This document shows, piece by piece, positions 23,236-37,635 of a DNA stretch of 64,000 nt (the stretch's first letter is position 1; every line of letters begins with the position of its first letter). The stretch is from NCBI RefSeq assembly GCF_006539725.1, contig NZ_BJNO01000016.1, positions 62,001-126,000 on the forward strand. Reading direction: 5' to 3'. The notes beneath the pieces are model-generated. The model was not told the origin of the DNA and searched no databases. It was given only the letters and a program-made list of their open reading frames with translations. This stretch comes from Klebsiella terrigena. Its GTDB lineage: Bacteria; Pseudomonadota; Gammaproteobacteria; Enterobacterales; Enterobacteriaceae. The position numbers were made by a program, and so were the translations under genes.

Positions 23236-23242
23236 TCCCGGC

Positions 23243-23270
23243 TCCCCTCTCTGCAACGCCAGAGAGGGGA
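23243..23270. terminator. Hairpin between loiP and the catabolic array
   Basis: Ten-base perfect stem TCCCCTCTCT/AGAGAGGGGA with an 8-base loop lies between the convergent loiP and ThDP-enzyme genes. Neither side has a clean U-run downstream, so termination strength is uncertain. Confidence 0.5.
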
Positions 23271-23277
23271 AAACGGC

Positions 23278-24918
23278 TTAATACAGCGTTTTCTGCGGCG
23301 GCCCGGCAAAACGCAGCGCGCCAATCTGCCCCATTTTGACCTCCACCACCGACGGCCCCGGCATCGCCAGCGCTTCGGTCATCACCGACTGGAAATCCTC
23401 CGCCCGCTCAACGCTCCACGCCTGCAGGCCGATGGCCTGCGCCAGCAGCGTGAAATCCGGAGTATGCAGCTCGTTGTAATACTGACGCCCGCCGAAATAC
23501 TTATCCTGAATCCCGCGCATCACGCCGTAGCCGCCATCGTTCATGACAATCAGCGTGACGTTAGCCTTTTCCTGCGCCAGCGTCGCCAGCTCCCCCAGAT
23601 TCAGGCTCAGCCCGCCGTCGCCGACGAGGCCGACCACCTTCCGCTGCGGGTTAGCAATCGCCGTGCCGATCGCCATCGGCAGGCCCATGCCAATGGCCCC
23701 GGCCAGCGAGTGAATGTTCATTAACGGGCCGTGGGCGCGGAACAGACGGCTCCCCCACAGGCTGCCGGAAACGGTGATATCGCGCACCAGGATCCCGTCG
23801 TCAGGCAGCGCCTGCGCGATGGCGTCGTTCAGCTGTGCGTAGGCGCCGCACTGCTCGCGCAGCCCGCTATCCGCCAGCGCGACCGCCTCTTTGACCTGCG
23901 CGTCCCACTGCTCATTGCCCCATTCACGCCCCTGCGTTTTTTCCGCCAGCGCCGCCAGCAGGCTGGCACAGTCGGCAATCAGCGTGTTATCCATCAGATA
24001 GTTACGGCTGGCCGCTGCCGGGTCGATATCAATCTGCACCCTTGGCGACGGCAGTTCGAGGGTCCAGGAGCGGGTTTCGTTGCTGCGCAGGCGCGAGCCC
24101 GCCACCAGGGTAAAATCGCACTGCGCCATCAGCGCTTCAACGGACGGCGAATTATGGAACGCGCGCAGGCTGGCGCGGTGCGCGTCCGGCAGCACGCCGC
24201 GGCCGTGGGTGCTGGAGATCACCGTCATCCCGGCATCGGCCAGCTTTTTCACCGCCGCCGCGCTGCCGATAGCCCCGCCGCCCAGCCACAGCAGCGGTCG
24301 TTTCGCCTGTCGCAGCTGCGCCCACAGCGCATCGACAACGGCGCTATCGGCGTCCGCCGCCGGGGCCGCTTTCAGCGCGGCGGTCACCAGCGAGGCCGGG
24401 ATTTTCGCGCCCTGAATATCAATCGGGATCTCAACCGATACCGGCCCGCACGGCGGCGTTTGCGCCTCCTGAATCGCCTTATGCAGAATAGCCAGCGCCT
24501 GGCTGGCGTTGCTGATGCGGTACGCGCGCTTCGAGCTGGCCTTCAGGAAGGTCAGCTGGTCGCGGGTTTCGTGAATAAAGCCGGTGTCGGCATCGAGCCA
24601 GGTCTTCTCCACCTGACCGGTGAGGTGCAGCAGCGGCGTACAGGCGTTCATCGCCTCCACCAGCGCCCCTACCGCGTTGCCGGCCCCCGCGCCGGTGCTG
24701 GTCAACGCCACGCCCAGTCCGGAAAAGCGCCCGTGGGCGTCGGCCATGGTGACCGATCCGGCCTCACCGCGCGCCGGAACAAAGCGGATATTTCCACGCT
24801 GGCCTACCGCATCGGCGATCGGCAGGTTGTGAATAGAGATGACGCCGTAAATAGCCTCAACGTTGTACTGCTCCAGCGTTCTGGCGATGGCTTCGCCGAC
24901 GGTTATCATTTCGCTCAT
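23278..24918 (-). CDS. ThDP-dependent decarboxylase/acetolactate-synthase-like enzyme
   Basis: Member of the acetolactate synthase/benzoylformate decarboxylase superfamily, 546 residues from the ATG at 24918 (AGGG upstream); an ATG eight codons earlier overlaps the preceding gene and is less likely. RGEAGSVTMADAHGR carries the activating Glu of the pyrimidine domain. GLVGDGGLSLNLGE...VIVMNDGGYG is the Mg/ThDP motif of the C-terminal domain. A 2-oxo acid decarboxylase producing an aldehyde for the neighbouring aldehyde dehydrogenase is a reasonable guess, but the substrate is unknown. It is the last gene of the minus-strand catabolic array. Confidence 0.85.
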   Translation of the reverse strand: MSEMITVGEAIARTLEQYNVEAIYGVISIHNLPIADAVGQRGNIRFVPARGEAGSVTMADAHGRFSGLGVALTSTGAGAGNAVGALVEAMNACTPLLHLTGQVEKTWLDADTGFIHETRDQLTFLKASSKRAYRISNASQALAILHKAIQEAQTPPCGPVSVEIPIDIQGAKIPASLVTAALKAAPAADADSAVVDALWAQLRQAKRPLLWLGGGAIGSAAAVKKLADAGMTVISSTHGRGVLPDAHRASLRAFHNSPSVEALMAQCDFTLVAGSRLRSNETRSWTLELPSPRVQIDIDPAAASRNYLMDNTLIADCASLLAALAEKTQGREWGNEQWDAQVKEAVALADSGLREQCGAYAQLNDAIAQALPDDGILVRDITVSGSLWGSRLFRAHGPLMNIHSLAGAIGMGLPMAIGTAIANPQRKVVGLVGDGGLSLNLGELATLAQEKANVTLIVMNDGGYGVMRGIQDKYFGGRQYYNELHTPDFTLLAQAIGLQAWSVERAEDFQSVMTEALAMPGPSVVEVKMGQIGALRFAGPPQKTLY

Positions 24919-24932
24919 TGCACACCCTTTTC

Positions 24933-26402
24933 TTAGTCGCACCAGTGGTTGACGCTATTACCCGTCGCCAGATAAATGCTTTTTTGTTGCATCCAGGCCT
25001 TTAGCCCCTGAATCCCTTTTTCGCGGCCCAGGCCGCTCTCTTTAAAGCCCCCAAATGGGGTCGAAATGGAGAAAACCTTGTAGGTGTTGATCCACACCGT
25101 TCCGACTTCCAGGCGATCGCTTAAGCGCAGAGCGCGTCCGCTGTCTCGCGTCCAGATCCCGGCCGCCAGGCCGTAAACCGAATCATTGGCCTGCTGGATC
25201 AGCGCGTCTTCATCGCTGAAGCTCATCGCCACCAGCACCGGACCGAAGATCTCCTCCCGGCAGGCGCGGGCCGCGTTGGTCAGCCCCTCAACGATCGTCG
25301 GTTGAAAATAGCTGCCTGCCGCCAGCGCCGGATCCGCCGGGATCTCGCCGCCGCACAGCACCCGGCCGCCTTCGCGTTTAGCCAGCTCGACGTACTCCAG
25401 CACGCTGTCGCGGTGCTTTTCATTAATCAGCGGTCCGACGTGGGTGTCCGCGCTAAACGGATGGCCGATTCTGAGCCCGCGGGTCAGCTCCAGCAGGCGC
25501 GCCATCAGCTGCGGATAGACTTTTTCATGCACAAACAGCCGCGAGCCGGCGATGCAGGCCTGGCCGCCGGAGCTAAAGATGCCGTAGCAGATGCCGCGCG
25601 CCGCCTGCTCAACATCGGCATCTTCCAGCACGATAGTCGGCGATTTGCCGCCAAGCTCCAGCGACGCCGGGATCAGCTTTTCCGCCGCCACGTGCGCCAG
25701 ATGACGTCCGGTGCTGGTGCCGCCGGTAAACGAAATTTTGCGCACCAGAGGGTGGCGGGCCAGCGCGTCGCCAATCACCGATCCTTTCCCCGGCAGGACG
25801 CTGAGCAGGCCCGCCGGCAGGCCGGCCTGTTCGAAGATCCGCGCCAGCTCCAGCGCCATCAGCGGCGTGGCTTCCGCCGGCTTGAGGATCACCGCGTTAC
25901 CGGCGGCGATCGCCGGGGCCACTTTTTGCATCTCGCTGGCGATCGGCGAGTTCCACGGCGTAATCGCCGCCACCACGCCCAGCGGCTCGTAGCGGCTGAG
26001 CGTCAGCAGATCCGCCTGACGCGGGGTCGGCAGTTCGCCCTCCAGCAGCTCGCAGGCGGCGGCAAAGTAGCGGGCGCTGCCCGCGGCGCTCATCACCAGG
26101 CCTCGCGCCTCCGCCAGCGGCTTACCGTTGTCGCGGCTCTGCATCCGCGCCAGTTCATCAAGGCGGGATTCGATAATATCCGCCGCTTTATGCAGGATCT
26201 TTGCCCGCAGATGGGGCAGCATGCTGCGCCACGCCGGCTGGCGCCAGGCGCTTTCGGCCAGCGCGATCGCCTCATGCAGATCCTCAAGGCTTGCCGCATG
26301 CAGCGTGGCGTTGACCGTGCCGTCGGCCGGAAACTGGCTGTGCATCAGGTTGCCGCCGCCGTGGCGCCAGCGACCGCCGATAAAAATCTTTAACTCATCC
26401 AT
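24933..26402 (-). CDS. NAD(P)-dependent aldehyde dehydrogenase
   Basis: A 489-residue aldehyde dehydrogenase superfamily protein. The catalytic Cys is in SSGGQACIAGSRLF and the general-base Glu in ASLELGGKSPTIV. The cofactor site includes ITPWNSPIASEMQKVAPAI and FTGGTSTGRHLAH, and EIFGPVL is near the C-terminus. It resembles the 2-hydroxymuconic semialdehyde/betaine aldehyde dehydrogenase branch. It lies between the aspartate-dehydrogenase-like gene (15-base gap) and the ThDP enzyme (14-base gap), so it probably oxidises an aldehyde made within this pathway. Confidence 0.88.
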   Translation of the reverse strand: MDELKIFIGGRWRHGGGNLMHSQFPADGTVNATLHAASLEDLHEAIALAESAWRQPAWRSMLPHLRAKILHKAADIIESRLDELARMQSRDNGKPLAEARGLVMSAAGSARYFAAACELLEGELPTPRQADLLTLSRYEPLGVVAAITPWNSPIASEMQKVAPAIAAGNAVILKPAEATPLMALELARIFEQAGLPAGLLSVLPGKGSVIGDALARHPLVRKISFTGGTSTGRHLAHVAAEKLIPASLELGGKSPTIVLEDADVEQAARGICYGIFSSGGQACIAGSRLFVHEKVYPQLMARLLELTRGLRIGHPFSADTHVGPLINEKHRDSVLEYVELAKREGGRVLCGGEIPADPALAAGSYFQPTIVEGLTNAARACREEIFGPVLVAMSFSDEDALIQQANDSVYGLAAGIWTRDSGRALRLSDRLEVGTVWINTYKVFSISTPFGGFKESGLGREKGIQGLKAWMQQKSIYLATGNSVNHWCD

Positions 26403-26417
26403 CGCCGCCTCTTTGCG

Positions 26418-27182
26418 CTATGCCAGTTCGCGGCAGGCGCGAACCGCGCTCAGTGCCGCCAGGGTGGAAGTTTTTGGGTTGCTGGCGAGCGGTAATCCGC
26501 TGAGCTCCAGATGGAACTCGCCAAACGCGCCCTGTACGTGCAGGGTGTGGGTATTGCGCCGGGTCAGCGGATCGACCATCAGCTGTACCCGGGTATCGTC
26601 CATCCCGATGCCGCCCAGCGCCACGGTTGCCGCAACGTTGGCGTTCGCCGGAAACAGGCGAGCCGCTTCGCGCGCGCTGCCTTCAAAAAAGATTTTTGCT
26701 TCAGTGACCGCGTTGAGGTCGATGAGCATTTCCGCATAGCTGCCGCGCCAGCTGGCCGGGCTTTTGCGCGACCGGTAGGTCACCTGCTCAAGACCGCCCT
26801 CTTTCGCAGCCGCCAGTCCGTCGATACCGGCCACCGCGCCGGAAAGCAGAGTTAGCCGGCCTCCGGCGCCGTTGAGGCGCTTTTCCAGTTCGCTATCCGC
26901 CAGCGCGCCGGTAGAGATCACCGCCAGATGCCAGCCGCGCCTGAGAATGGCTTCACCAAACTGCGCCACCGCCTGCTGGCTGGCGCACTCCAGCACCAGA
27001 TCCGGGGTTTCCGCGCAGGACTGCGGATCGTCCAGTACCGCTACCGCATCGCCGAAGCGCTGGCGGATCGCCGCGTGGTGCGCCTCGCGCGCCACCACCC
27101 AGCCAAGGGCGACCTGCGGCGGCAGCCGTTCAATCACCGCCTGCGCCATCGCGCCATAGCCGATGAGCATGATCTTTTTCAT
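26418..27182 (-). CDS. L-aspartate dehydrogenase-like oxidoreductase
   Basis: DUF108/NadX-family protein of 254 residues. The Rossmann motif is IGYGAMAQAVIERL. The family block RRNTHTLHVQGAFGEFHLEL ends in SNPKTSTLAALSA, with the His expected at the active site. Known family members oxidise L-aspartate to iminoaspartate/oxaloacetate with NAD(P). In an aromatic-degradation cluster it may act on an amino or imino acid released from the ring compound, or in the reverse direction; both are inference. Confidence 0.85.
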   Translation of the reverse strand: MKKIMLIGYGAMAQAVIERLPPQVALGWVVAREAHHAAIRQRFGDAVAVLDDPQSCAETPDLVLECASQQAVAQFGEAILRRGWHLAVISTGALADSELEKRLNGAGGRLTLLSGAVAGIDGLAAAKEGGLEQVTYRSRKSPASWRGSYAEMLIDLNAVTEAKIFFEGSAREAARLFPANANVAATVALGGIGMDDTRVQLMVDPLTRRNTHTLHVQGAFGEFHLELSGLPLASNPKTSTLAALSAVRACRELA

Positions 27183-27191
27183 CTCAACTCC

Positions 27192-27986
27192 TTACAGATG
27201 ACGGCAAAAGCCGCCGGAGACATCCAGCGCCGCGCCGGTGGTAAACGACGCCAGCGGCGAGGCGAGGAACAGCAGCGCCTGCGCCGGTTCCTGCGGCCTG
27301 CCGAGGCGCGCCATCGGGATCCCGCGCTTGCGGGCGATATCCGCCGTCCACGCGGGCCAGCTCTGACTCTTGTCCGTGCGGTTCTCGAAGCGCCGCTGCC
27401 ACTGTCCGGACTCCACCATGCCGAGCAGAATGGAGTTCACGCGAATGCCTTTGGTAACCAGGTCCTTCGACAGCGTCAGGGTCATGTTGAGCAGCGCCGC
27501 GCGCGCTGCGGAGGTGGCGATCATGTGCTCCTCCGGCTGCAGCGCCAGCAGCGAGTTCACGCAGGTGATCGAGGCGATATCCGAGCGCTCGAGCTGCGCC
27601 TGAAAGGCTTTCACCGGGTTAATCACCCCGAACAGCTTAAGCTCCGCCTCGTGCAGCCACGCCTCCCGCGGCGTATCGGCGAAGTGCGCCACGTACCCCT
27701 GCCCGGCGTTATTAATCAGCATGTCGGCACCGCCAAAGCGGGCCGCTACCGCGTCGGCAAAGCCCTGCACCTCGTATTCTTTCAGCACGTCGCAGCGGTA
27801 AGAGAAGACGTCCGCTCCCGGATATTCGTTTTGCAGCGCCGCATGGGCGCTGGCGAGCCGGTCCGGATTACGGCCGCAGAAGGCGACCTTCGCCCCCTCC
27901 CCCAGCAGCAGGCGCAGCGTTTCAAAGCCAATCCCTGACGACCCGCCGGTGACCACCGCTACGCGCCCCTCAATTTGTGCATTCAT
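27192..27986 (-). CDS. SDR-fold protein lacking the canonical Tyr-Lys pair
   Basis: A 264-residue short-chain dehydrogenase/reductase fold. The cofactor loop TGGSSGIGFET and NNAG are intact, and a Ser is present in CVNSLLAL. Where the YxxxK motif should stand, the sequence reads IATSAARAALLNM, so Tyr is Thr and Lys is Arg. A known SDR subgroup carries such SAAR sequences, so this may be a genuine variant active site rather than decay. The gene overlaps the end of the hydrolase gene by 17 bases and precedes the aspartate-dehydrogenase-like gene by 9. Confidence 0.82.
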   Translation of the reverse strand: MNAQIEGRVAVVTGGSSGIGFETLRLLLGEGAKVAFCGRNPDRLASAHAALQNEYPGADVFSYRCDVLKEYEVQGFADAVAARFGGADMLINNAGQGYVAHFADTPREAWLHEAELKLFGVINPVKAFQAQLERSDIASITCVNSLLALQPEEHMIATSAARAALLNMTLTLSKDLVTKGIRVNSILLGMVESGQWQRRFENRTDKSQSWPAWTADIARKRGIPMARLGRPQEPAQALLFLASPLASFTTGAALDVSGGFCRHL

Positions 27987-28743
27987 CGCGCACCTCTTCC
28001 CCTACCCGTAAAAGCTGTTGATTGAAAAATGTGTCGTTATCGAGATAGCTGGCGTGCCCCGCTCGCGGGATGCCGACGTACGGCATGCGGTAGCGCAGCG
28101 CCAGGCCGTGCACCAGCTCCGGCTGGGTAACGGCGTCCTGCTCGCCGCACCACGCCTCAAAGCGGCCGCCAAAATCGCCAAGCCAGCGGTGAATATCGTC
28201 ATGGGCCAGCATCCACGCCGCGGCCAGGTAGCCCTCGGCGCGCAGCCTGCGCATCCCGGCGGCAACGACGGCAACGTTAGCCTCATCGCTACAGGGGTGC
28301 AGCAGCTTCGCCGCCCGGCCCTGCGCCATCGCTTCGCCGCCGGCGGCCATCTGCTGCTGCCGACCCTGCCAGATTTTTTCACGCTGCGCGGCTTCCGCCC
28401 GGCCGTAGCCCTGAGCGGCATCGGCCAGCACCAGGCGCAGAACGCGCCCGGGATACTTTGCCGCAAAGGCGCTGGCCACCAGCGCGCCGAGCGAGTGGCC
28501 CACCAGCACCGCCTGCTCAACGCCGGCGTGGTCGAGCAGCCGCGCCAGCGCCTCGGCATAGTCGCCGGCATCCGCACGCTCGGCCGAGAGCATCGGGCTT
28601 TCGCCATAACCGGGCATATCCCAGGCCAGCACGCGGTAGCCGGACAGCGCCATCTGCTTATGCCAGGAGGCCGCGCCGGAGCTGATGCCGTGCAGCAGCA
28701 CCAGCGGTGTGCCGCTCCCCTGTTCACGAAAACCCGTCATCAT
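27970..28743 (-). CDS. Alpha/beta hydrolase, probable ring-cleavage product hydrolase
   Basis: A 257-residue alpha/beta-fold hydrolase. The oxyanion region is LVLLHGISSGAASWHKQ, the nucleophile elbow VGHSLGAL (Ser), the acid CGEQDAVT (Asp) and the base RAGHASYLD (His). Length and motifs fit C-C bond hydrolases of meta-cleavage pathways (MhpC/BphD group), which hydrolyse the product of an extradiol dioxygenase like the one encoded upstream. An esterase acting on a substrate ester is the alternative. Confidence 0.82.
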   Translation of the reverse strand: MMTGFREQGSGTPLVLLHGISSGAASWHKQMALSGYRVLAWDMPGYGESPMLSAERADAGDYAEALARLLDHAGVEQAVLVGHSLGALVASAFAAKYPGRVLRLVLADAAQGYGRAEAAQREKIWQGRQQQMAAGGEAMAQGRAAKLLHPCSDEANVAVVAAGMRRLRAEGYLAAAWMLAHDDIHRWLGDFGGRFEAWCGEQDAVTQPELVHGLALRYRMPYVGIPRAGHASYLDNDTFFNQQLLRVGEEVRDECTN

Positions 28744-28749
28744 GTCTCC

Positions 28750-29280
28750 TTAACCCCGCTTCACTTTCGACAGGGGATGATCTTGCGGATAGGTCGGGAT
28801 GTTCGGCTTGCGGGTGCCGAGCATCACGCACATCAGCGCTTCCTCTTCGCCGTGGTTAAACAGCCCGCGATAGATCCCCGCCGGGACGGAGATCAGGTCA
28901 CGCTCGCGCAGCACGGTTTCGGTATAGCTATCGCCGTCCTGAACCATCAGGGTTATCTGCCCCTTGAGCATGAAAAACACCTCTTCGACGTCATCGTGCA
29001 GGTGCAGCGGCCCTTCGCACTTCGCCGGCAGCACCATGGTCGAGAAGGTGAAGTTCTCCGCCGCCACGGTATTGGTATCGTTGGCGACGCCGGTGGCGCC
29101 GGTGCCGATGTAGCGCATCTGGGCGCGGCGGTATTTCGGGTCGAAATCGGCCTGGAACTTCAGCGCATTCCAGTCATATTTGCGTCCTTCAAAGCGCGCG
29201 ATCCGCGACTCAATCCACTCTTCCATCGTCAGGTGCTCAGGCTTGAGGCCCTGTTTTGCAGTTACGCTTGAATCTGTCAT
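28750..29280 (-). CDS. Cupin-domain protein
   Basis: A 176-residue single-cupin protein. Cupin motif 1 is intact in GPLHLHDDVEEVFFMLKG (HxH and Glu ligands). Motif 2 reads PAGIYRGLFN, with Arg where the fourth metal ligand His normally stands, so the metal site would be 2-His-1-Glu or absent. The function is not assignable from sequence: dioxygenase, isomerase or sugar-type cupin are all possible. It lies six bases upstream of the hydrolase and ten bases after the MFS gene, inside the catabolic array. Confidence 0.78.
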   Translation of the reverse strand: MTDSSVTAKQGLKPEHLTMEEWIESRIARFEGRKYDWNALKFQADFDPKYRRAQMRYIGTGATGVANDTNTVAAENFTFSTMVLPAKCEGPLHLHDDVEEVFFMLKGQITLMVQDGDSYTETVLRERDLISVPAGIYRGLFNHGEEEALMCVMLGTRKPNIPTYPQDHPLSKVKRG

Positions 29281-29290
29281 CGTCTTCTCC

Positions 29291-30547
29291 TCAGTAACGT
29301 CTTAGCAGCGGCAGCAACAGGAGACAGCCTACGACCGCCATCACCGCCAGAAAGATCAGTCCGGAATCCATGCTGTGGGTGAAGGCGATCAGCGCGCCCA
29401 TCACCGCCGGCGACAGGGCGCCGGCAAAGTTTCCCAACCCGTTGAAAATCCCGCCCGCCGTGGCGCTGACCCGGGGATGGGTCGCCTTCGCCAGCAGCGC
29501 AAAAATATTGGGGGCGCCGGTTCCCCACATGAAGGTGCTAAAGCTCATCGCCGCGATAACCGTCAGCGGGCTGGTGAAGTGCATCACCGCCGCCAGGCCC
29601 ACCGCCGCGCCGGCCAGCGAGATAAAGCAGGCAGCCGCGCGTTTATCGACCCGGTCGGAAAGCCACGCCCCGATGATTTCGCCAAGCAGCATGGCGATAA
29701 ACGGCATCGACGACAGCCAGCCGGCGTGCTCCAGGTGGATACCCTTGCCCTTAATCAGGTAGCCGGGAAGCCAGCCGTTGATGCCCCACAGATAGGCCAG
29801 GAAGGCGATATTAAAGACGCAGATCATCCAAAAGTGCGGGCTGACAAACAGCTCCCGGCGCGCGCTACGCCGCTCTTCCTGCGAGCTGGCGGCCGCGGAC
29901 GTTTTGCCCTCCAGCTGGATCCCGCGCAGGCCGATACGGACAAAAATCAGCACCGGCGCCGTCAGCATCGCCATCACAAAGAAGGTGCTTTGCCAGCCGA
30001 AGGTGCTGAGCAGCCAGATGGAGAGCGGGAAGCCGATGGCCGCGCCGACCGGCGTCCCGAGCAGCCACAGCATGGTGGCGCGCGCCTGCAGACGCTGCGG
30101 GAAGGTGTGGCGCACGATAGCGAAGGCCAGCGGAAACAGCGGCCCCTCGGCGATGCCGAGCAGCACGCGCAGCACGATCATGGCGCTGTAGCTGTGGGTG
30201 AATCCCATCATCACCATCAATACGCACCACACCACCATCATGCCGGTGAGCAGGCGCAGCGGCGCGATGCGGTCGCCCAGCCCGCTGAGCAGAACCGAGG
30301 AGAAACCGTAGCTCAGTAAAAAAGCGCTCATCAGGATGCCGAGGCGCGTGGTATCAAAATCGATGCCCATCGCCTGCTGAAAATGGCTATCAGAAAACAG
30401 CGCCGCAATGCTGATTTTGTCGAAGAACGCCAGCAGCACGCAGGCCAGTAACGACAGCGGAATAGCCCAGCGAACCGCTTTTTCAGGCGCGTGGACGCCC
30501 TCACCGCTCGCCACGGAGGGCGCGGTGTTTGTCTCTAATGTGGTCAT
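29291..30547 (-). CDS. MFS transporter, aromatic/organic acid type
   Basis: A 418-residue twelve-helix major facilitator. Family features are GLGDRIAPLRLL between helices 2 and 3 and RVLLGIAEGPLFPLAFAIVR around helix 4, typical of the anion:cation symporter (phthalate/glucarate permease-like) group. It probably imports the pathway substrate across the inner membrane. It sits in the array between the ferredoxin reductase (26-base gap) and the cupin gene. A second MFS gene flanks the cluster divergently. Confidence 0.85.
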   Translation of the reverse strand: MTTLETNTAPSVASGEGVHAPEKAVRWAIPLSLLACVLLAFFDKISIAALFSDSHFQQAMGIDFDTTRLGILMSAFLLSYGFSSVLLSGLGDRIAPLRLLTGMMVVWCVLMVMMGFTHSYSAMIVLRVLLGIAEGPLFPLAFAIVRHTFPQRLQARATMLWLLGTPVGAAIGFPLSIWLLSTFGWQSTFFVMAMLTAPVLIFVRIGLRGIQLEGKTSAAASSQEERRSARRELFVSPHFWMICVFNIAFLAYLWGINGWLPGYLIKGKGIHLEHAGWLSSMPFIAMLLGEIIGAWLSDRVDKRAAACFISLAGAAVGLAAVMHFTSPLTVIAAMSFSTFMWGTGAPNIFALLAKATHPRVSATAGGIFNGLGNFAGALSPAVMGALIAFTHSMDSGLIFLAVMAVVGCLLLLPLLRRY

Positions 30548-30573
30548 CTCTCCCCCTTACGGGTGCGCGAGTG

Positions 30574-31770
30574 TTATCGCAATGACATCAGCGAAAAGGT
30601 CAGATCGTCGAGCGGCACCGCGGAAAGATCCCTCCCCGCCGCCATCCAGCGCTTCGCCAGCTTGACGGTACGCGCATCGTTAAACGCCACCAGCTGGCTG
30701 AGCCGGCCGTCGCTATCGAGCGAGAAAAAGAGTGGCCCTTTGGGATCGCGGCGAACCAGCGTCCGGGTTCCCGGCTGGGGGATCCCGAGGATCTGAATGT
30801 TGTGCGCGTATTGATCCGACCACAGCCACGGCGCTTCGTCGTAGCCCTCGGCCTGCGGATCGAGCATCGCCTTCGCCGTCGCTACCGCCTGATTCTGGGC
30901 AAAGGCCCACGACTGAATGCACAATCCGTACTGGTGATGGCGGGCGACATCGCCGGCGGCGAAAATAGCCGGATCGGCGGTTCGCCCCTGGGCATCAACC
31001 ACGATCCCGCGATCGACGGGCAGGCCCGCCTCCTGCGCCAGCTCCAGATTAAGCTCGACGCCGATCCCCACCACCACCGCGTCGAAGGTCTGACGCCGGC
31101 CGTCGCAGCGGATCACCGGCAGGCCGTCGCTATCTTCGAGGCCCAGCGCGCCGCACCCCGTGCGGACGTTGACCCCCTGCTCGCGGTGCAGCCATTCCAG
31201 CTCCTGCGATACCTCGCCGCTCACCGAGCGCATGCACAGCGCCGGCTGCTGTTCGTAGAGCGTGACCTCGACACCGCTTTTACGCGCCGAGGCGGCAATC
31301 TCGAGGCCAATCCAGCCGCCGCCGACAATCGCCAGCCGGGTGCTGACCGCCAGGCGCGCCTTCAGGCGCCGGGCATCCTGCCAGTGGCGCAGGGTGTAGA
31401 CCTGGGGATGCTGCGCCCAGGCCTCGCCGGGCAGGCGGGCGCGGCCGCCGGTAGCGATCAGCAGGCGGTCGTAGGCCAGCCGCTCACCGCCGCTCAGGCG
31501 CACGGTTCTCGCTTCACGATCGATGGCCTCCGCGCGCTGCGGGCGGTACCACTTCAGGTTCAGCGCCTGCTGCGCTTCTGCGCTAAACAGACGCGGCAGC
31601 GCCGGTTCGGCCTCCAGCAGCGCCGCCTTCGACAGCGGCGGGCGCTCGTAAAAATCCCACTCCTCCTCGGCAATAATGCAAATCTCGCCGTCAAAGCCTT
31701 CATCACGCAGCGTTTTTGCCGCCCAGCCGCCGGCCTGGCCGCCGCCGATAATCACTATCCGCACCGTCAT
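30574..31770 (-). CDS. FAD-dependent ferredoxin reductase (HcaD-like)
   Basis: Passes electrons from NADH to the Rieske ferredoxin encoded at 35.7-36.0 kb. It has 398 residues from MTVRIVIIGGGQAGGWAAK at 31770, whose ATG overlaps the extradiol dioxygenase stop by four bases; a longer open frame of 21 Gly/Arg/Pro-rich residues is rejected. It has two dinucleotide folds: GGGQAGGWAA for FAD and AIVGGGWIGLEIAA for NAD. DPAIFAAGDVA is the second FAD contact. It is the BphA4/HcaD-type component of a three-component ring hydroxylase. Confidence 0.9.
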   Translation of the reverse strand: MTVRIVIIGGGQAGGWAAKTLRDEGFDGEICIIAEEEWDFYERPPLSKAALLEAEPALPRLFSAEAQQALNLKWYRPQRAEAIDREARTVRLSGGERLAYDRLLIATGGRARLPGEAWAQHPQVYTLRHWQDARRLKARLAVSTRLAIVGGGWIGLEIAASARKSGVEVTLYEQQPALCMRSVSGEVSQELEWLHREQGVNVRTGCGALGLEDSDGLPVIRCDGRRQTFDAVVVGIGVELNLELAQEAGLPVDRGIVVDAQGRTADPAIFAAGDVARHHQYGLCIQSWAFAQNQAVATAKAMLDPQAEGYDEAPWLWSDQYAHNIQILGIPQPGTRTLVRRDPKGPLFFSLDSDGRLSQLVAFNDARTVKLAKRWMAAGRDLSAVPLDDLTFSLMSLR

Positions 31771-32693
31771 ACCGCCTCCGGCTTTTTCTGCTGGCGGCGG
31801 GTGTCGTGGTCGATTCCGCCCTCCACCGCCCACTCGGTAAAGGAAACCAGGGAGTGCTCCAGCTCGCGCGGCTGCCAGTTTTCCGTCAGATAGTCGTCGT
31901 TGGTGTAGTACTCAAACGCGCCGCCGGTCGGGCTGTTGACGTACCAGAAGTAGGCCGAAGAGACCGGGTGGCGGCCGGGGCCGATAAAGGTGCTCCACTG
32001 GCTTTTGTTCATCGCGATCCCACCGCCGATCACTTCGTGAATATCGCGCACCGTAAAGGCGACGTGGTTAAGACCGCGCTTGCGGGTCGGCAGCTGTAAT
32101 AAGAAGAGATTGTGATGGCCGCCGCGCACGCCGCAGCGCAGGAACACCGCGCGGTTGATATAGCGATCGGACACCTGGAAACCCAGCACCTCGCGGTAGA
32201 AGCTCTCTACCGCCGCCAGCTCCTCAACGAAGAACACCACGTGGCCGATGTTGATCGGCTGGGCACGCTCGTAAACCGGGCTCGGCGTATCGATCCGCCG
32301 CACGTCGCCCCACTGGTTTATCGGCTCGACGTCCAGCTCAACCGGCGTCTGCTGGCTCACCTGAACCCGCAGCGTCATGCCGTTCGGATCCTGGCACTCG
32401 AGGGCGCCGTCCACTTCGCGAAAGGCCGGCTGCTGCGCCAGCTTCGGCCGCAGCGCCTCCAGCGCCGCCCGGTCCGCTACGCCCCAGGTCATCCGGCGCA
32501 GGGTATTACCCGCCTCAAAGGCGGGCGGCAGATCCGGGCTGTTGATCGGGTTCAGCAGCACCTGAGCGCCGCTCAGGGTGGTAAAACGCCGGCCGTCGGC
32601 ATCGCTCGTCAGGCCAAAATCACGCATAAATTTGGCGCTATGGGTCAGGTCGTCGACGCCAAACTCCAGCTTTTCAATTCCGGTTACACTCAT
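31767..32693 (-). CDS. Two-domain extradiol ring-cleavage dioxygenase (VOC family)
   Basis: A 308-residue vicinal-oxygen-chelate protein with a degenerate N-terminal half and an active C-terminal half. The iron ligands are placed as usual for type I extradiol enzymes: His in NIGHVVFF, His in GLNHVAFTV and Glu in GGAFEYYTN. It should cleave a catechol next to its two hydroxyls (meta cleavage). The catechol would come from the Rieske oxygenase and SDR encoded upstream. It is separated from the IclR gene by 88 bases. Confidence 0.88.
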   Translation of the reverse strand: MSVTGIEKLEFGVDDLTHSAKFMRDFGLTSDADGRRFTTLSGAQVLLNPINSPDLPPAFEAGNTLRRMTWGVADRAALEALRPKLAQQPAFREVDGALECQDPNGMTLRVQVSQQTPVELDVEPINQWGDVRRIDTPSPVYERAQPINIGHVVFFVEELAAVESFYREVLGFQVSDRYINRAVFLRCGVRGGHHNLFLLQLPTRKRGLNHVAFTVRDIHEVIGGGIAMNKSQWSTFIGPGRHPVSSAYFWYVNSPTGGAFEYYTNDDYLTENWQPRELEHSLVSFTEWAVEGGIDHDTRRQQKKPEAV

Positions 32694-32781
32694 CGTTCGT
32701 TGCCTCTTTACCGTTCTGTCGCCCGGATTTGGGCGTAAAACATGCCCGACGCACCCAAGCGCCTGCAGTTAACGTATTGAT

Positions 32782-33570
32782 TTAAATAGCCTGAGCTAAA
32801 TGCCCGAGGAAGCCTGAAATTTTGTCCGCCGCCATGCTGACATCGTTTTGCAGCCGCTCGCGGTCGGCCTGCGGGATCTCATCCGACGGCACCAGGATAC
32901 TCACCACCGCCGCCACCCGTCCGCTGCGATCGTAGACCGGGTAAACGATGGAGGAGATGCCGTGACGGTAGAAGGACTCGCCGATCACAAAGCCCCGCGC
33001 CTTATCCTGCTGTACCATCTGCCACAGCGCTTCGCGGTCGTGAATTTGCCCCGGCGTATTGCCCGGCAGCCGCTCGTCAGGGAACAGCAGTTCGAACTCG
33101 CGGCGGGAGACATCGGTCAGCAGCATGCGGCCAAGCGAAGTGCAGTGGACCGGCAGGCGGGTGCCGATGCTGACCTGATTAATGCGCGAGCCGGCGGCGC
33201 TGACGCGGGCGATGTAGATAATGTCCCGCCCGTCGCGGATCGCCAGGTGGCTGCTGCACTGGCTGGTATCGCGCAGCTGCTCAATCACCGGCTGACCGAC
33301 CTGCGCCACATCCAGCGAGGCGATATATTCAAAGCCAAGACGCAGGACGTTCATCCCGAGCGAAAAGGTATTGGTGCGCGGATTGCGCTCGAGAAAGCCC
33401 ATATATTCCAGCGTTTGCACCACGCGATAGGCGGTCGCTTTCGGCATATCCACCAGCCGATGCAGCTCGGCGAAGGTCAAATCGCGATGCTGCTCGCCAA
33501 ACGCCAGCAGCAGCTCCAGCCCCCGCTCCAGGCCCGGCACCAGGTACTTCACTTCCCGCTCGTTTGCCAT
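32782..33570 (-). CDS. IclR-family transcriptional regulator
   Basis: A 262-residue IclR-type regulator. The N-terminal winged HTH includes LTFAELHRLVDMPKATAYRVVQTLEYMGFLER. The C-terminal effector domain contains SIGTRLPVHCTSLGRMLL and RHGISSIVYPVYD. IclR proteins often control aromatic catabolism and bind palindromes near divergent promoters, so it is the natural candidate for the three GTTTCA-N4-TGAAAC sites at 36.0-36.35 kb. Unusually, it lies inside the array it would regulate, which gives autoregulation. Confidence 0.9.
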   Translation of the reverse strand: MANEREVKYLVPGLERGLELLLAFGEQHRDLTFAELHRLVDMPKATAYRVVQTLEYMGFLERNPRTNTFSLGMNVLRLGFEYIASLDVAQVGQPVIEQLRDTSQCSSHLAIRDGRDIIYIARVSAAGSRINQVSIGTRLPVHCTSLGRMLLTDVSRREFELLFPDERLPGNTPGQIHDREALWQMVQQDKARGFVIGESFYRHGISSIVYPVYDRSGRVAAVVSILVPSDEIPQADRERLQNDVSMAADKISGFLGHLAQAI

Positions 33571-33584
33571 ACCGCCTCGCCTCT

Positions 33585-34334
33585 TTAGTTAAAAACAAAT
33601 CCGCCGTTGACCGGGATCAGCTGCCCGGTGATAAACCGCGACAGCTCGCTGAGCAGCCACACCACGCTGCCGGTAACATCTTCCGGCTGCTGGGCGCCGC
33701 TCAGGGCCCGGCCGTTCTCATACAGCTGATGACGTTCAGCCGGAACGTACTCGGTGGCCTCCACGCGGGTCAGCCCTGGGGCGATCGCGTTAATGCGGAT
33801 GCGCTTCTCCCCGAGCTCGCGCGCCATTGAACGAGTCATGGCGATCACCGCGCCTTTGCTGGCGACGTAGGCCATCAGGCGCGGCGCGCCCCACAGCGCG
33901 GTGTCCGACGCCACGTTAACGATCCCGCTGCCTTCTCGCAGCAGCGGTACCGCCGCCCGGGTCACCAGCCAGGTGCCTTTGACGTTAACCGACATCACCC
34001 GATCCCACAGATCCGGATCGTAATCGATCATATTTTTGCCGCCGACGCCGGTGGCCATCGCGGCGTTATTCACCAGTCCGTCAATGGGACCTCGTTCGCC
34101 AATCGCGCTAAACGCCTGCGCGATTGAGTGCGGATCGGCGAGATCGATAGCCTGAGACTCAATGGCAAAACCTTGTTCACTGAGCCCATGCGCGCGCTCG
34201 GCCAGTTCGCCCTCGAGGATGTCGCACATCACCACCTTCGCGCCCTGCTCCGCACAGGCTTTGGCAAAGTGATAGCCCAGCCCGCGCGCGGCGCCGGTCA
34301 CCACGATGCGTTTACCGTTCAGCAGTCCGTTCAT
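33585..34334 (-). CDS. SDR, candidate cis-dihydrodiol dehydrogenase
   Basis: A 249-residue classical SDR with TGAARGLGYHFA (cofactor), VNNAAM, VNVASD (Ser) and YVASK (Tyr-Lys), all intact. The start ATG overlaps the oxygenase stop by one base (TGATG), so the two are translationally coupled. Its position right after the oxygenase fits oxidation of the cis-dihydrodiol to the catechol (inference). It contrasts with the second SDR of the cluster, which lacks the catalytic pair. Confidence 0.87.
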   Translation of the reverse strand: MNGLLNGKRIVVTGAARGLGYHFAKACAEQGAKVVMCDILEGELAERAHGLSEQGFAIESQAIDLADPHSIAQAFSAIGERGPIDGLVNNAAMATGVGGKNMIDYDPDLWDRVMSVNVKGTWLVTRAAVPLLREGSGIVNVASDTALWGAPRLMAYVASKGAVIAMTRSMARELGEKRIRINAIAPGLTRVEATEYVPAERHQLYENGRALSGAQQPEDVTGSVVWLLSELSRFITGQLIPVNGGFVFN

Positions 34335-35356
34335 CAGGCGGCACCCTGCTGTTCTTCACGCGCCGCCAGCTGCTCTTTGGCCGCTTTTTGCATCATGCGG
34401 CGCAGGCGCGACAGCCCGACGTCGTGCTGATAGAGATATTCGTGGTCGCGGGCGTTCGGCGCCAGGCTCTCCAGCACCACCCGATCCTGCTCGAGCACTT
34501 CCCAGTGCAGTTTTTCCAGGCGGTTGCGGTACATAAAGCGCCACATATCGCGCTGCCAGCCCTGCACGCCGCGGATACGCCAGAAAAAGACCCGACAGTT
34601 GTCGTTATCTTCCGGCACCACCATGCCGACGATAAAGAAGTGGCCTCCTGGCCCAAAGCGTTTCTGATATGGGATCGACAGGCGCATCCAGCAGGCGCCG
34701 CTGTTGCCGAGCTCTACCCAGTCAAAGTTGACGCCGCTCTGCCCCTTCTTCTCAAAAATGAAGCCGGTTTTGGTCGGCTGCAGCACCATGTCCGCTTTAC
34801 GCTCGCCTTCCGCCATCGAGTGCGAAGAGGAGTGCAGATAGGTGCCGTGCATCGGGTCCATGACGTTTTCCAGCGCGTACTGATAGTTACATTTCTACGC
34901 GGCGGTGCAGAGGAAGTTGCTGTATTTGTCGCCGTTAGCCAGCTCTTCCGGGAAGGTCAGCTCCTCCGGCGGCTGGTTCGCCGTGGCGCCAAACCATAAG
35001 AAGATCGCCCCGTGCGCTTCCTGAACGCTATAGCTGCGCACGCACTGCTGGCCCACCAGCGGACACTTGTCGACCGCCGGGACATCTTTCACTTCGCCGT
35101 TTCCCGCCACTTCCACGCCGTGATACCAGCAGGCGATGCGGTCGCCGAGGTTCCAGCCCATCGACAGGCGCGCGCCGCGGTGCGGGCAGCGGTCTTCCAG
35201 CGCCTGCAGCTGGCCGTCTTTATTACGCCAGACCACAATCTGCTCGCCGAGACGGGTGATGCCCACCGGCGCGGACTGCACCTCCCAGCTTGCCAGCACC
35301 GGATACCACAGGCCGCGTAACCCTTTATCGAGATAGTTTTGTACCGTTGTCGTCAT
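34334..35356 (-). pseudogene. Rieske oxygenase large subunit, interrupted by one amber codon
   Basis: Terminal oxygenase that would dihydroxylate an aromatic ring. The frame runs open for 340 codons except for one TAG at 34895-34897 (codon 154). The stop falls in the family motif that normally reads AxWK...ENxxDxxH; here it reads TAA-stop-KCNYQYALENVMDPMH, so TGG to TAG is the likely change. The Rieske cluster is intact before it (CPH and CWYH, 16 residues apart). After it come the iron ligands DPMHGTYLH and probably the Asp of EQDRVV. The downstream 175-residue piece (34334-34861, ATG at MDPMHG) lacks the Rieske domain and cannot work alone. No other lesion is seen, so the mutation is recent, suppressed or a sequence error. 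Confidence 0.9.
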
Positions 35357-35366
35357 CGCTGTGTCC

Positions 35367-35675
35367 TCAGTATCCGTTTACCTGCAAAAAAGCCTCGAAG
35401 CTGGTCTCGCTCCAGGGTTCGCCCTGCTGGTCGTGCATTCTCAGGTCGTTCAGCCCGTCCACCAGCTGCGTCAGGCTCTCTGCGCCCTGCTCAAACAGCC
35501 CTTCAAGGGTGGCGATAAGCTGCAGCTCCCAGTTTTCCGGAACGCGGCTGCGGGTCTGCCAGATAAGATTGGCGTAGTCGCCCGGCTTGTGGATATTGCC
35601 GTTACCGCCCTCGGCGGGCGGCGTAAACTGGCGGCTTTCCGGCAGCGCCGGGTTGAAGTTCAGGGTTTCGCTCAT
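35367..35675 (-). CDS. Small protein of the Rieske oxygenase gene set, unknown function
   Basis: A 102-residue protein (MSETLNFNPALPESRQ...) that I do not recognise. It is not a normal ring-hydroxylase small subunit, which is about 170 residues with an NTF2-like fold. It is soluble, acidic and mostly helical in its second half (ENWELQLIATLEGLFEQG), with Trp in LIWQTRS. Its ATG overlaps the ferredoxin stop by four bases and it ends ten bases before the oxygenase, so it is tightly coupled to both. A partner or assembly factor of the oxygenase is likely (inference from position only). Confidence 0.75.
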   Translation of the reverse strand: MSETLNFNPALPESRQFTPPAEGGNGNIHKPGDYANLIWQTRSRVPENWELQLIATLEGLFEQGAESLTQLVDGLNDLRMHDQQGEPWSETSFEAFLQVNGY

Positions 35676-35998
35676 GCCACGCTCTCCTCGATAAAAGTAA
35701 TCTGGATCTGATTGTCGAATACCCGCACCGGGTAACGATTGAGGCTACGACCGCCCGGACCGTGCAGGCACTGACCGGTTTTCACATCGAATACCGCTTC
35801 GTGCAGCGGGCATTCAACCTTGCCGTCTTCCACAAAGCCCTGGCTTAACAGCGCGTAGGCATGGGGACACACGTCCTCCAGCGCGTAATACTCGCCATCA
35901 ATCAGATAAATGCCGATCTCTTTACCGTCGATATTGCCGCTATAAGGGAAATCTTCCTGTACCTGCTCTGCGTCACATACGCCTATCCAGCTCATCAC
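35672..35998 (-). CDS. Rieske-type ferredoxin
   Basis: A 108-residue [2Fe-2S] Rieske protein with CPHAYALLSQGF and CPLHEAVFD as cluster ligands (CxH and CxxH) and the typical VFDVKTGQCLHGP after them. It carries electrons from the FAD reductase to the terminal oxygenase (HcaC/BphA3-like). It is the first gene of the minus-strand array. The start is ATG-ATG with GGAGGA upstream; translation from either adds or removes one Met. Confidence 0.92.
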   Translation of the reverse strand: MMSWIGVCDAEQVQEDFPYSGNIDGKEIGIYLIDGEYYALEDVCPHAYALLSQGFVEDGKVECPLHEAVFDVKTGQCLHGPGGRSLNRYPVRVFDNQIQITFIEESVA

Positions 35999-36013
35999 GA
36001 TCCTCCAGGCTTT

Positions 36014-36029
36014 GTTTCATATATGAAAC
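36014..36029. promoter_or_regulatory. Operator-like palindrome O1
   Basis: GTTTCATATATGAAAC is a perfect 16-base inverted repeat between the predicted promoter and the ribosome binding site of the Rieske ferredoxin gene. It shares the GTTTCA-N4-TGAAAC pattern with two other sites in the same gap. Repression by the cluster IclR protein is the working guess. Confidence 0.65.
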
Positions 36030-36052
36030 TCTGTTTCTTATTTAATACGGTC

Positions 36053-36080
36053 AATATAAAAGCGTTCAATCTTTCGTCAA
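36053..36080 (-). promoter_or_regulatory. Sigma70-like promoter of the catabolic array
   Basis: On the minus strand TTGACG (36075-36080) and TATATT (36053-36058) are separated by 16 bases, a good match to sigma70 elements, about 55 bases before the ferredoxin start. The O1 palindrome lies just downstream of the expected transcription start. Confidence 0.6.
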
Positions 36081-36128
36081 GCGGCAATGTGAAGGATTTG
36101 TTAACCGATCGTGATTTAATTATCTAAG

Positions 36129-36144
36129 TGTGCAATCGATCACG
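36129..36144. promoter_or_regulatory. CRP-like site in the divergent gap
   Basis: TGTGC-N6-TCACG matches the CRP consensus TGTGA-N6-TCACA at eight of ten core positions. It lies between the divergent promoters of the catabolic array and the MFS gene, so catabolite control of one or both is plausible. Confidence 0.45.
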
Positions 36145-36283
36145 AAAAATTGCGGTAATATGAAATTGTGATATTTAAAAGGAAGCGTCAAAATAAATTA
36201 AGCGGGCGCTTAACTTTTCGAAAATGACTATTGACTTCTTTTCCCTACAATCATTAAAAATGATAAATCCGGCTAAACATCAA

Positions 36284-36346
36284 GTTTCACTGGTGAAACA
36301 CTTTTCAATTATTATCTTTTAAAACAACGAGTTTCACCTATGAATC
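36284..36346. promoter_or_regulatory. Operator-like palindromes O2 and O3 before the MFS gene
   Basis: GTTTCACTGGTGAAAC (36284-36299) has perfect 7-base arms. GTTTCACCTATGAATC (36331-36346) matches the same pattern with one mismatch. The two are 47 bases apart and lie 78-140 bases upstream of the MFS start. The rest of this AT-rich gap (35999-36423) contains no gene. Confidence 0.6.
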
Positions 36347-36423
36347 ATTTTACATACGTGACTATCACCGTTATTTAAAAATAGCGCCTTTGATTCATAA
36401 ATGACCGGGAGAAAAGAGTAATC

Positions 36424-37635
36424 ATGACCGCAAGATGGCAGGGAACAATCGCGCTACTGTTGTTAATTATCATCTCTTATATTGACCGGGTAAATATCTC
36501 AGTGATGATACTTAACCCCGAATTTGCGGCCCATTTTCAGCTAAATGAAAACAGAATGTTACAAGGAATGCTGATGACCTGCTTTCTTGTGGGCTATGGA
36601 CTGTCGGCACTACTCTTAACGCCGGTGATTGAAAACCGACTGCACTATCGGCAGGGGCTATTAATCAGTATCGCTATCTGGGCCGCGGTGTGCGCCGTTT
36701 CTCCGCTGCTCGGATCGCTGTTCGGGATGCTGATCGCCCGAGTTATCTTAGGTATTGCGGAGGGGCCGCTATTTTCACTTAAAACGCGCTTTATCAGCGA
36801 CAGCTTCGCCGCCGGCGAGATCGGTAAACCGAACGCGGTCACCGCGCTCGGGGTCTCGCTGGGGCTGGCGGTGGGCTTCCCGCTGGTCACTTTTTTAATC
36901 GCGCATCAGGGGTGGCAAGGCTCTTTCTACAGCCTGGCCGCGTTGAACCTGCTACTCGGCGGCGGGCTTATTTGGCGCTTCCTGCCGGCTCCGGCCGCGG
37001 CGGCGCAAAGGTCTCGCGCCGGCTTTAAGCAGACGTTTCAGCTGGCCTGGCGCACGCCGCTCCTCGGCTGGATCCTGCTGGTCGAGATCGCCACCCTCAG
37101 CTATCTGTGGGGCAGCAGCGCCTGGCTGCCGGCGTGGCTGCGCGATGAGCATCACTTCTCGCTACAGGCCACCGGCATTCTGGCAGCGATCCCCTTTCTG
37201 CTCAGCCTCGGCTCTAAATTTCTTGGCGGCGTGCTGCTCGATAAAATGCGTCCCGAGCAGGCTCCGCTGCTGTTTATAAGCGGCGGCCTTCTGACGGCCT
37301 GCTCGATACTGGCGCTGATGCTCAGCCACCAGCCGGCGTGGCTGGCGCTGTTTATGCTGTCGGCCAATATATTCTGGGGGCTTCAGGGAGCGGCGATACC
37401 GGCGGTGGTGCAGCATCACGCGGCAAAGGAGGCGGTAGGCAGCGCCTACGGCATCATTAACGGTATCGGCAATATCTGCGCGGCGTTTATCCCGCTGCTG
37501 ATGGGGCTGGTGATGAAGTCGGTAGGGTCGGTCAGTTCAGGATTTTCGGTGCTGGTGGCGTCACAGGTCGTTACCCTGCTTGCCGGAGGCGTGCTGCTGC
37601 TGCGCATGCGTCGCGCAGCAGCAGTGAGCGCTTAG
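36424..37635 (+). CDS. MFS transporter, divergent from the catabolic array
   Basis: A 403-residue major facilitator with twelve predicted helices, ISYIDRVNISVMIL at helix 1 and RVILGIAEGPLFSLKTRF around helix 4, of the anion:cation symporter type. GGGAGAAAAGAG supplies the ribosome binding site. It is the only plus-strand gene of the island and shares the control gap, with two palindromes just upstream, so it is probably co-induced. The role would be uptake of the aromatic substrate or of a related compound; substrate unknown. It ends three bases from speB, convergently. Confidence 0.85.
   Translation: MTARWQGTIALLLLIIISYIDRVNISVMILNPEFAAHFQLNENRMLQGMLMTCFLVGYGLSALLLTPVIENRLHYRQGLLISIAIWAAVCAVSPLLGSLFGMLIARVILGIAEGPLFSLKTRFISDSFAAGEIGKPNAVTALGVSLGLAVGFPLVTFLIAHQGWQGSFYSLAALNLLLGGGLIWRFLPAPAAAAQRSRAGFKQTFQLAWRTPLLGWILLVEIATLSYLWGSSAWLPAWLRDEHHFSLQATGILAAIPFLLSLGSKFLGGVLLDKMRPEQAPLLFISGGLLTACSILALMLSHQPAWLALFMLSANIFWGLQGAAIPAVVQHHAAKEAVGSAYGIINGIGNICAAFIPLLMGLVMKSVGSVSSGFSVLVASQVVTLLAGGVLLLRMRRAAAVSA

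Follow-up and report, generated by a model that had tools for sequence, protein, structure and literature searches.

Which compound is degraded by a compact gene array that lies between loiP and speB in Klebsiella terrigena, and by what route? The window, i.e. the whole stretch of DNA analysed, comprises 64,000 nucleotides (RefSeq assembly GCF_006539725.1, contig NZ_BJNO01000016.1, positions 62,001 to 126,000), and all positions given here refer to it. Fourteen minus-strand genes (23278-35998) and a divergent plus-strand MFS gene (36424-37635) are placed between loiP (22477-23235) and speB (37639-38559), both named by homology. A first-pass annotation had described this layout, and all 15 frames were found where it had placed them. 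Its reading of a coherent ring-dihydroxylation and extradiol-cleavage pathway is supported by the present analysis, the array being apparently co-regulated. It could name no substrate and regarded its account as refutable by an already characterised pathway; none was met in the literature searched, and kynurenate is proposed here.

Judged from gene content, the array probably encodes a generic route of dihydroxylation, extradiol cleavage and 2-oxo-acid decarboxylation that ends in an aspartate-type product. The substrate that we tentatively put first is a 4-hydroxyquinoline-2-carboxylate, most likely kynurenic acid. A shade more tentative is the wider proposal that the cluster is the gene set of the orphan kynurenate (quinoline) pathway, conserved among Enterobacterales (gut and opportunistic species), Acinetobacter and soil bacteria, in which the heteroring would yield glutarate and iminoaspartate, the latter captured by aspartate dehydrogenase (or by RidA in some lineages).

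Proposed route

MFS proteins would import kynurenate, and ferredoxin, reductase and Rieske oxygenase would together convert it into the 7,8-dihydrodiol, which a first short-chain dehydrogenase (SDR1) would oxidise to 7,8-dihydroxykynurenate. A ring-cleavage enzyme of the vicinal oxygen chelate (VOC) type is predicted to cut between C8 and C8a, giving 5-(3-carboxy-3-oxopropenyl)-4,6-dihydroxypicolinate, i.e. a 2-oxobutenoate side chain on 4,6-dihydroxypicolinate. The side-chain double bond would be reduced by a second short-chain dehydrogenase (SDR2), the 2-oxo acid decarboxylated with loss of CO2 by a thiamine pyrophosphate (TPP) enzyme, and the resulting aldehyde converted into a carboxyethyl chain by an aldehyde dehydrogenase (ALDH). 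Cupin and alpha/beta hydrolase would open the pyridone at C4-C4a and N-C8a to glutarate (C5) and aminofumarate/iminoaspartate (C4), and an aspartate dehydrogenase would reduce iminoaspartate to L-aspartate. Kynurenate is proposed because its ring accounts for every enzyme, each used once, with C10 divided into CO2, C5 and C4. The release of iminoaspartate on pyridone opening would also explain an aspartate dehydrogenase inside a ring-cleavage operon. We infer every substrate, reaction and binding event of this route.

Kynurenate breakdown by bacteria is touched on in passages of two papers: pseudomonads are said to turn kynurenate into glutamate, alanine and organic acids (PMC11354673), and its degradation is suggested for P. 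fluorescens (PMC5610271, in whose reference list a 1963 title concerns the formation of 7,8-dihydroxykynurenic acid).

Enzyme assignments

Gene families were assigned from Pfam and NCBIfam, with up to 25 NCBIfam matches considered per protein. Among these matches a curated NCBIfam cut-off is passed by three proteins, i.e. the TPP enzyme, the aspartate dehydrogenase and SDR2. The L-aspartate dehydrogenase (26418-27182, minus strand like all genes of the array) scores 395.6 bits against NF009828 (cut-off 177) and 228.8 bits against NF009827 (cut-off 226); it contains the Asp_DH_C domain (PF01958, 1.4e-31), and its solved relatives include L-aspartate dehydrogenases. The TPP-dependent 2-oxo-acid decarboxylase-like enzyme (23278-24942, ATG at 24918) possesses PF02775, PF02776 and PF00205 and reaches 816.9 bits with NF005470 (cut-off 495), and the atypical SDR2 (27192-27986) reaches 433 bits with NF005468 (cut-off 266); both are family entries without a substrate name. 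The ALDH (24933-26402; PF00171, 8.6e-168) stays below the cut-off of each NCBIfam entry among its matches.

The two short-chain dehydrogenases differ in their catalytic residues. SDR1 (33585-34334; PF13561/PF00106) is canonical and retains Ser-Tyr-Lys in 85 of 85 distinct loci. SDR2 keeps the Ser, and Thr and Arg replace the catalytic Tyr and Lys in all 72 distinct loci that cover those positions, so it lacks the Ser-Tyr-Lys signature of a classical carbonyl-reducing SDR. Its solved relatives include the peroxisomal trans-2-enoyl-CoA reductase 1yxm, but many carbonyl reductases too. The best of them is Q9HYA2 (3lf1), which we take to be a P. aeruginosa PAO1 protein; the block around PA3505 of that strain is presumably similar, and a text search with locus tags found nothing. 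Such a difference would fit a cis-dihydrodiol dehydrogenase and a C=C reductase, the roles proposed for SDR1 and SDR2, respectively.

The candidate type I extradiol dioxygenase (VOC, 31767-32693; PF00903, 1.1e-12) contains the stretches IGHVVFF, LNHVAF and FEYYT. In 3b59 the positions aligned with both His and the Glu are occupied by the same residues; for homoprotocatechuate 2,3-dioxygenase this applies to the second His and the Glu. These are presumably the iron-binding residues. The cupin (28750-29280; PF07883) possesses HxHxxxE, and when 35 sequences of its form are aligned, 66 positions are invariant. Its nearest solved relatives, the quercetinase QueD and oxalate oxidase, are weak matches, and its structure model, of medium confidence, has generic cupin matches. 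The alpha/beta hydrolase (27970-28743; PF00561, GHSLG), for which hydrolysis of a C-C or N-acyl-enamine bond is proposed, is weakly related to RutD, BphD/HsaD and the N-acetyl-enamine hydrolase 3kxp (3.3e-11), among many others.

Every enzyme save the aspartate dehydrogenase would also fit a benzenoid acid, the TPP enzyme and ALDH form a general 2-oxo-acid module, and solved oxygenases are no more than distant relatives of the one encoded here. The substrate might accordingly be a benzenoid or heteroaromatic acid other than a quinoline, one with an alpha-keto acid as extradiol product, and the aspartate dehydrogenase might serve an amino-acid side chain or an N-acyl-aspartate part. This alternative is considered unlikely, albeit the most serious one: it offers no ready role for aspartate dehydrogenase or RidA, and neither the 2-hydroxypentadienoate hydratase nor the aldolase nor the acylating aldehyde dehydrogenase of benzenoid meta-cleavage was found among the 15 genes with Pfam and NCBIfam. 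The first-pass annotation had already reported these lower-pathway genes absent, and its expectation of a non-standard route after ring opening gains support.

Conserved core and variant loci

A set of 46 non-overlapping loci with ALDH, aspartate dehydrogenase and TPP enzyme was compared, after eight overlapping loci had been dropped. The loci are mostly 20-kb cuts, so that absences include genes cut off, and the counts of VOC enzyme, cupin and oxygenase include divergent forms. The hydrolase is present in 46, the VOC enzyme in 45, the IclR regulator in 44, the cupin, SDR1 and SDR2 in 41 each, the oxygenase in 40 and the HTH_62 protein in 39. The loci differ in electron supply and import: the present one has ferredoxin and FAD reductase, and 19 of the 46 have a 2Fe-2S/NAD reductase. 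An NMT1/THI5-type binding protein occurs in 14 (from a domain scan of one), and TRAP-transporter-like genes are located in Roseobacter-like loci, the TRAP and taxon labels being given by eye.

RidA/YjgF proteins (PF01042 in the one scanned) are present in nine of the 46 loci. Members of this family hydrolyse imines and enamines; together with the aspartate dehydrogenase, they call for iminoaspartate as an intermediate. A 107-aa protein without Pfam match, likewise in nine loci, adjoins HTH_62 in the RidA-bearing variants (e.g. L116, 11010-11330). One enteric genome (G756) contains a second, partial locus (L105, 8481-13905) with 2Fe-2S reductase, RidA, a 109-aa protein, VOC enzyme and MFS transporter; its oxygenase is 51% identical, and the lower genes are not in the stretch fetched.

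FAD monooxygenases are found in six and a sulfatase in four of the 46 core loci. The nearest NCBIfam entries of the former are 3-hydroxybenzoate 6-monooxygenase and salicylate hydroxylase, with scores below the cut-offs. In five loci (L068, L072, L079, L135 and L138) the core genes are accompanied by FAD monooxygenases, an arylsulfatase-like gene and divergent VOC and cupin forms, which suggests that these variants handle a related substrate bearing a hydroxyl or sulfate group. Such additions would be expected if some hosts start from a hydroxylated or sulfated ring, and hence if the same route served another 2-carboxyquinoline (xanthurenate, quinaldate or another) funnelled to the same dihydroxy compound. 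We consider this improbable for the array. Quinaldate has no oxygen at C4, so that cleavage beside C4 would require a further hydroxylation, for which the array has no obvious enzyme, and xanthurenate would not need a Rieske dioxygenase.

Co-occurrence with tryptophan degradation

If the substrate derives from kynurenine, tryptophan 2,3-dioxygenase is expected to be commoner in hosts of the cluster. In two families (f11 and f55) it is present in 20 of the 22 genomes with the cluster, compared with 23 of the 50 without it (Fisher p=0.0003, kinship uncorrected), i.e. in 12/13 versus 12/24 genomes of f11 and 8/9 versus 11/26 of f55. Among genomes of at least 3.5 Mb the counts are 20/21 and 22/37 (p=0.005). 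Homogentisate dioxygenase, taken as a control, is not clearly enriched (17/22 versus 30/50, p=0.19; the 30 include one partial match that stays under the cut-off). Cluster-free here means no ALDH match at 1e-160, a threshold at which weaker variants could be missed. Two genomes with 51-53% identical proteins other than the cluster ALDH (G1324 and G1359) were placed in neither group, and genomes with the aspartate dehydrogenase only were left out. Five of the 22 positives come from a phylum-wide sample and the rest from family samples; two (G1194 and G1410) possess only part of the cluster, at a contig edge. In the family of genome G322, all 34 cluster-bearing genomes tested have the dioxygenase, a figure with no cluster-free control. 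The co-occurrence also speaks against the non-quinoline acids considered above.

Linkage of tryptophan dioxygenase and kynureninase to the cluster in genome G208, about 10 kb off, was rejected as proof and is treated as chance: the intervening genes look unrelated by eye, and rough arithmetic gives a chance expectation of about 0.2. No tryptophan dioxygenase was located within 200 kb of the cluster on the same contig in the other dioxygenase-bearing genomes, 37 in one set and 16 in another; most are drafts with the genes on different contigs, so that linkage spanning contig ends may have been missed.

Several points weigh against kynurenate. G208 is the only genome with a tryptophan dioxygenase near the cluster, and other genes lie between. 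Homogentisate dioxygenase leans the same way as tryptophan dioxygenase, though weakly; the 50 control genomes are smaller (averaging 4.0 versus 4.7 Mb), and relatedness was left uncorrected in the co-occurrence test. None of the three cluster-bearing Enterobacteriaceae examined has a tryptophan dioxygenase, so in these three the substrate must come from outside. No kynurenine aminotransferase was recognised in the cluster loci, where most flanking frames were read by eye and not all were searched. The closest solved relatives of the oxygenase are phthalate and carbazole oxygenases, with no pointer to kynurenate. SDR2 is missing in five of the 46 core loci, where its step may fall to another enzyme, and those proposed for cupin and hydrolase are assigned by elimination. 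Substrates may furthermore differ among the variants with FAD monooxygenases and sulfatase.

Divergent promoter and transport

The 425-bp divergent promoter contains two operator-like TTTCA-N4-TGAAA palindromes, 270 bp apart. One, TTTCATATATGAAA (36015-36028), precedes the ferredoxin gene and has an equally placed counterpart in 20 of 21 named relatives; the other, TTTCACTGGTGAAA (36285-36298), lies towards the divergent MFS gene and has such a counterpart in 21 of 21. Two TTTCA-N3..6-TGAAA sites in 425 bp were never reached in 2000 mononucleotide shuffles. Across the genome the TTTCA-N4-TGAAA pattern occurs 16 times, compared with one occurrence of the reversed pattern. Fourteen of the 16 sites lie outside the cluster promoter; the two of these that were inspected for a wider regulon (C1:29415 and C15:10640) sit within unrelated frames. 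Among eight more distant enteric loci, seven possess at least one such palindrome in the promoter and one (L102) possesses none.

The regulator gene of the array encodes an IclR-family protein resembling PcaR/PcaU/PobR (32782-33570; PF01614, PF09339; TIGR02431, 4.4e-49, below cut-off). This protein would bind both palindromes and thereby couple the array to the divergent transporter. The latter (36424-37635, plus strand; PF07690, 2.8e-43) lies between array and speB in all 21 named loci. A second MFS transporter within the array (29291-30547; PF07690; TIGR00893, 4e-50, below cut-off) is the probable substrate importer.

Expression of a similar gene set has been recorded in A. baumannii on mucin, where A1S_0954 (hydrolase, 3.7-fold), 0956 (L-aspartate dehydrogenase, 2.2-fold), 0957 (betaine-aldehyde dehydrogenase, 2.4-fold) and 0958 (acetolactate synthase, 2.4-fold) are up (PMC5757984). 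In gene order and annotated names they agree with the last genes of the cluster, of which they may be the counterparts. The rise of 2- to 4-fold does not distinguish a growth substrate from stress, and the cluster might be biosynthetic or serve detoxification, making or modifying an aspartate-derived product, a reading to which the nearly constant place of the HTH_62 protein beside the oxygenase would also be congenial. We hold this very unlikely: a PcaU-like IclR regulator and, in the loci, genes for an extradiol dioxygenase, transporters and porins are what is usual in catabolic clusters, and Pfam and NCBIfam revealed no synthetase or carrier protein among the 15 genes.

The oxygenase and its partner

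Two components of a three-component Rieske system are encoded in the operon besides the oxygenase. The Rieske [2Fe-2S] ferredoxin (35672-35998, ATG at 35995; PF00355, 1.5e-20) has the motif CxH-16-CxxH and is nearest to the AndAb/HcaC type in NCBIfam, with scores below the cut-offs; the FAD-dependent ferredoxin reductase (about 30574-31770; PF07992, PF14759) is AndAa/HcaD-like, again below the cut-offs. The gene of the oxygenase alpha subunit (34334-35356) is interrupted. Its frame (34337-35356, 340 codons) is open save for a single in-frame TAG at codon 154, with PF00355 (1.2e-23) before the stop and VanA_C (PF19112, 6.7e-9) after it. The Rieske motif CxH...CxxH (residues 57-79) precedes the TAG and the iron motif D-P-M-H-G-T-Y-L-H (167-175) follows it, so that the present genome does not encode the two motifs in one protein and neither half is a complete catalyst. 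The pathway is therefore probably not functional in this genome, as far as can be read from the interrupted gene; the TAG may also be a sequencing error.

In all 21 named relatives the oxygenase frame is open. An internal stop occurs in two of 32 oxygenase-bearing genomes among 246 Enterobacteriaceae searched, i.e. the present one and G899. Within 20 kb, G899 contains only ferredoxin, HTH_62 and oxygenase of the cluster, besides a weak SDR match of 26%. The other 13 frames of the present array are all open, so the loss of the oxygenase, if real, is probably young.

A 102-aa HTH_62 protein ("recombinase-like helix-turn-helix", 35367-35675; PF20552, 1.8e-20) is encoded between ferredoxin and oxygenase. 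In 86 of 90 distinct loci its gene is at most 1.2 kb away from that of the oxygenase (the exceptions being L105, L145, L149 and L150). No solved structure matched it at E<=0.001, and the three C-terminal helices alone are confident in its fold model. Despite its recombinase-derived name, it may be a partner of the oxygenase instead of a DNA-binding protein.

Conservation and age of the locus

The order speA-speB-mfs2-ferredoxin...ALDH is identical in 21 of 21 named Enterobacterales loci (L009-L029), from Klebsiella, Raoultella, Kluyvera, Cedecea, Citrobacter, Enterobacter, Leclercia, Pseudocitrobacter, Buttiauxella and one more member of the family. These loci end inside the ALDH gene, and the loiP side is visible only in records of K. 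aerogenes and K. pneumoniae. Compared with Klebsiella pneumoniae ATCC 13883, synonymous divergence (dS) is 0.62-1.02 across 14 cluster frames and 0.68 for speB, and the ratio of nonsynonymous to synonymous divergence (dN/dS) is 0.02-0.17 in the 14 frames, which indicates purifying selection. The 14 frames represent 13 genes, the oxygenase being split into two halves; ALDH and TPP genes are left out because the ATCC 13883 locus ends inside the ALDH. The same gene order recurs in other genera, and this recurrence together with the low dN/dS makes the arrangement more than chance.

The cluster has a G+C content of 0.64 versus about 0.57 in the flank, an excess also present in 18 of 18 relatives measured. 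The first-pass annotation had taken the array for an acquired insertion and had named loiP and speB as neighbours in E. coli K-12; the two are indeed adjacent in MG1655. A 5.4-kb part of the cluster had no match among 20,395 E. coli records at megablast sensitivity. A recent insertion was nevertheless rejected, given the position beside speB common to many genera, the speB-like dS and maintenance by selection. On these comparisons the cluster has been maintained for a long time and does not represent a recent island. It may have been gained long ago, or it may be ancestral and have disappeared from E. coli.

Outside Enterobacterales, the cluster was found on an A. baumannii record, in Caballeronia (relatives of Burkholderia) and in two further families. 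Oxygenase matches occur in 97 of 200 genomes of the G322 family, the weakest, near 54% identity, belonging to variant loci. Distribution is patchy: an even class-wide sample contained one match among 369 genomes at E<=1e-60, the present genome itself, and the cluster core was present in nine of 20 loci opened from phylum-wide matches to the aspartate dehydrogenase.

Between loiP and the TPP gene there are just 42 bases here (23236-23277). An OprD-type porin gene is located there in K. aerogenes and an ISKpn26 element in a K. pneumoniae record. The locus is also carried by records labelled plasmids (LR134124.1, NZ_CP129771.1 and CP125156.1, the last of 5.4 Mb); in two opened ones (L030, L034) it occurs alongside tkt, speA, speB and metK, and these look like pieces of chromosome.

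Comparison with known systems

Kynurenic acid is a ligand of the N-methyl-D-aspartate (NMDA) and aryl hydrocarbon receptors. If the kynurenate route holds, common gut bacteria could consume a neuroactive host metabolite of tryptophan, its removal by Klebsiella-type bacteria would be directly testable by deletion, and enzymes known biochemically for six decades without genes would gain them. If kynurenate is the wrong substrate, a widely kept pathway of clinically relevant organisms is nonetheless described, together with a candidate for its regulator, operator-like sites and the predicted order of its reactions. No paper on the cluster or on kynurenate degradation genes was among the matches listed in the literature searched, a search that most subscription journals lay outside. 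Of nine papers with both "kynurenic acid" and "Rieske", judged by title, none concerned kynurenate degradation genes.

From the classical meta-cleavage pathway the cluster differs in the hydratase, aldolase and acylating aldehyde dehydrogenase not found among its 15 genes. The three-component AndA anthranilate 1,2-dioxygenase and Hca 3-phenylpropionate dioxygenase resemble it in ferredoxin (AndAb/HcaC) and reductase (AndAa/HcaD), with scores below the cut-offs; the oxygenase of the cluster is instead an alpha subunit of the short VanA/KshA type, for which no gene of a beta subunit was found, and the downstream genes are different. The alpha-(N-acetylaminomethylene)succinic acid hydrolase 3kxp, a distant relative of the cluster hydrolase, acts on the same type of bond as predicted here, a likeness that is weak and common to many alpha/beta hydrolases. 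We take this enzyme to be from vitamin B6 degradation.

The lum operon of Nocardioides simplex for lumichrome/riboflavin shares the breakdown of an N-heteroaromatic ring with a Rieske dioxygenase, an extradiol enzyme and a TPP decarboxylase (PMC12746152). It differs in an alpha-beta oxygenase, a P450 and a xanthine-oxidase-type enzyme, and it ends in pyruvate and acetoacetate, aspartate being nowhere mentioned in the paper (PMC12746152).

Closest to the proposed route is the quinoline pathway by which Pseudomonas degrades kynurenate, with enzymes classified as EC 1.14.99.2, 1.3.1.18 and 1.13.11.10. That pathway was described with extracts and has no assigned genes in the literature searched, whereas the cluster is known from its genes alone. 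The order predicted for the cluster is alike: dihydroxylation, dehydrogenation of the dihydrodiol, extradiol cleavage at 8,8a, a picolinate intermediate, and C4 and C5 products.

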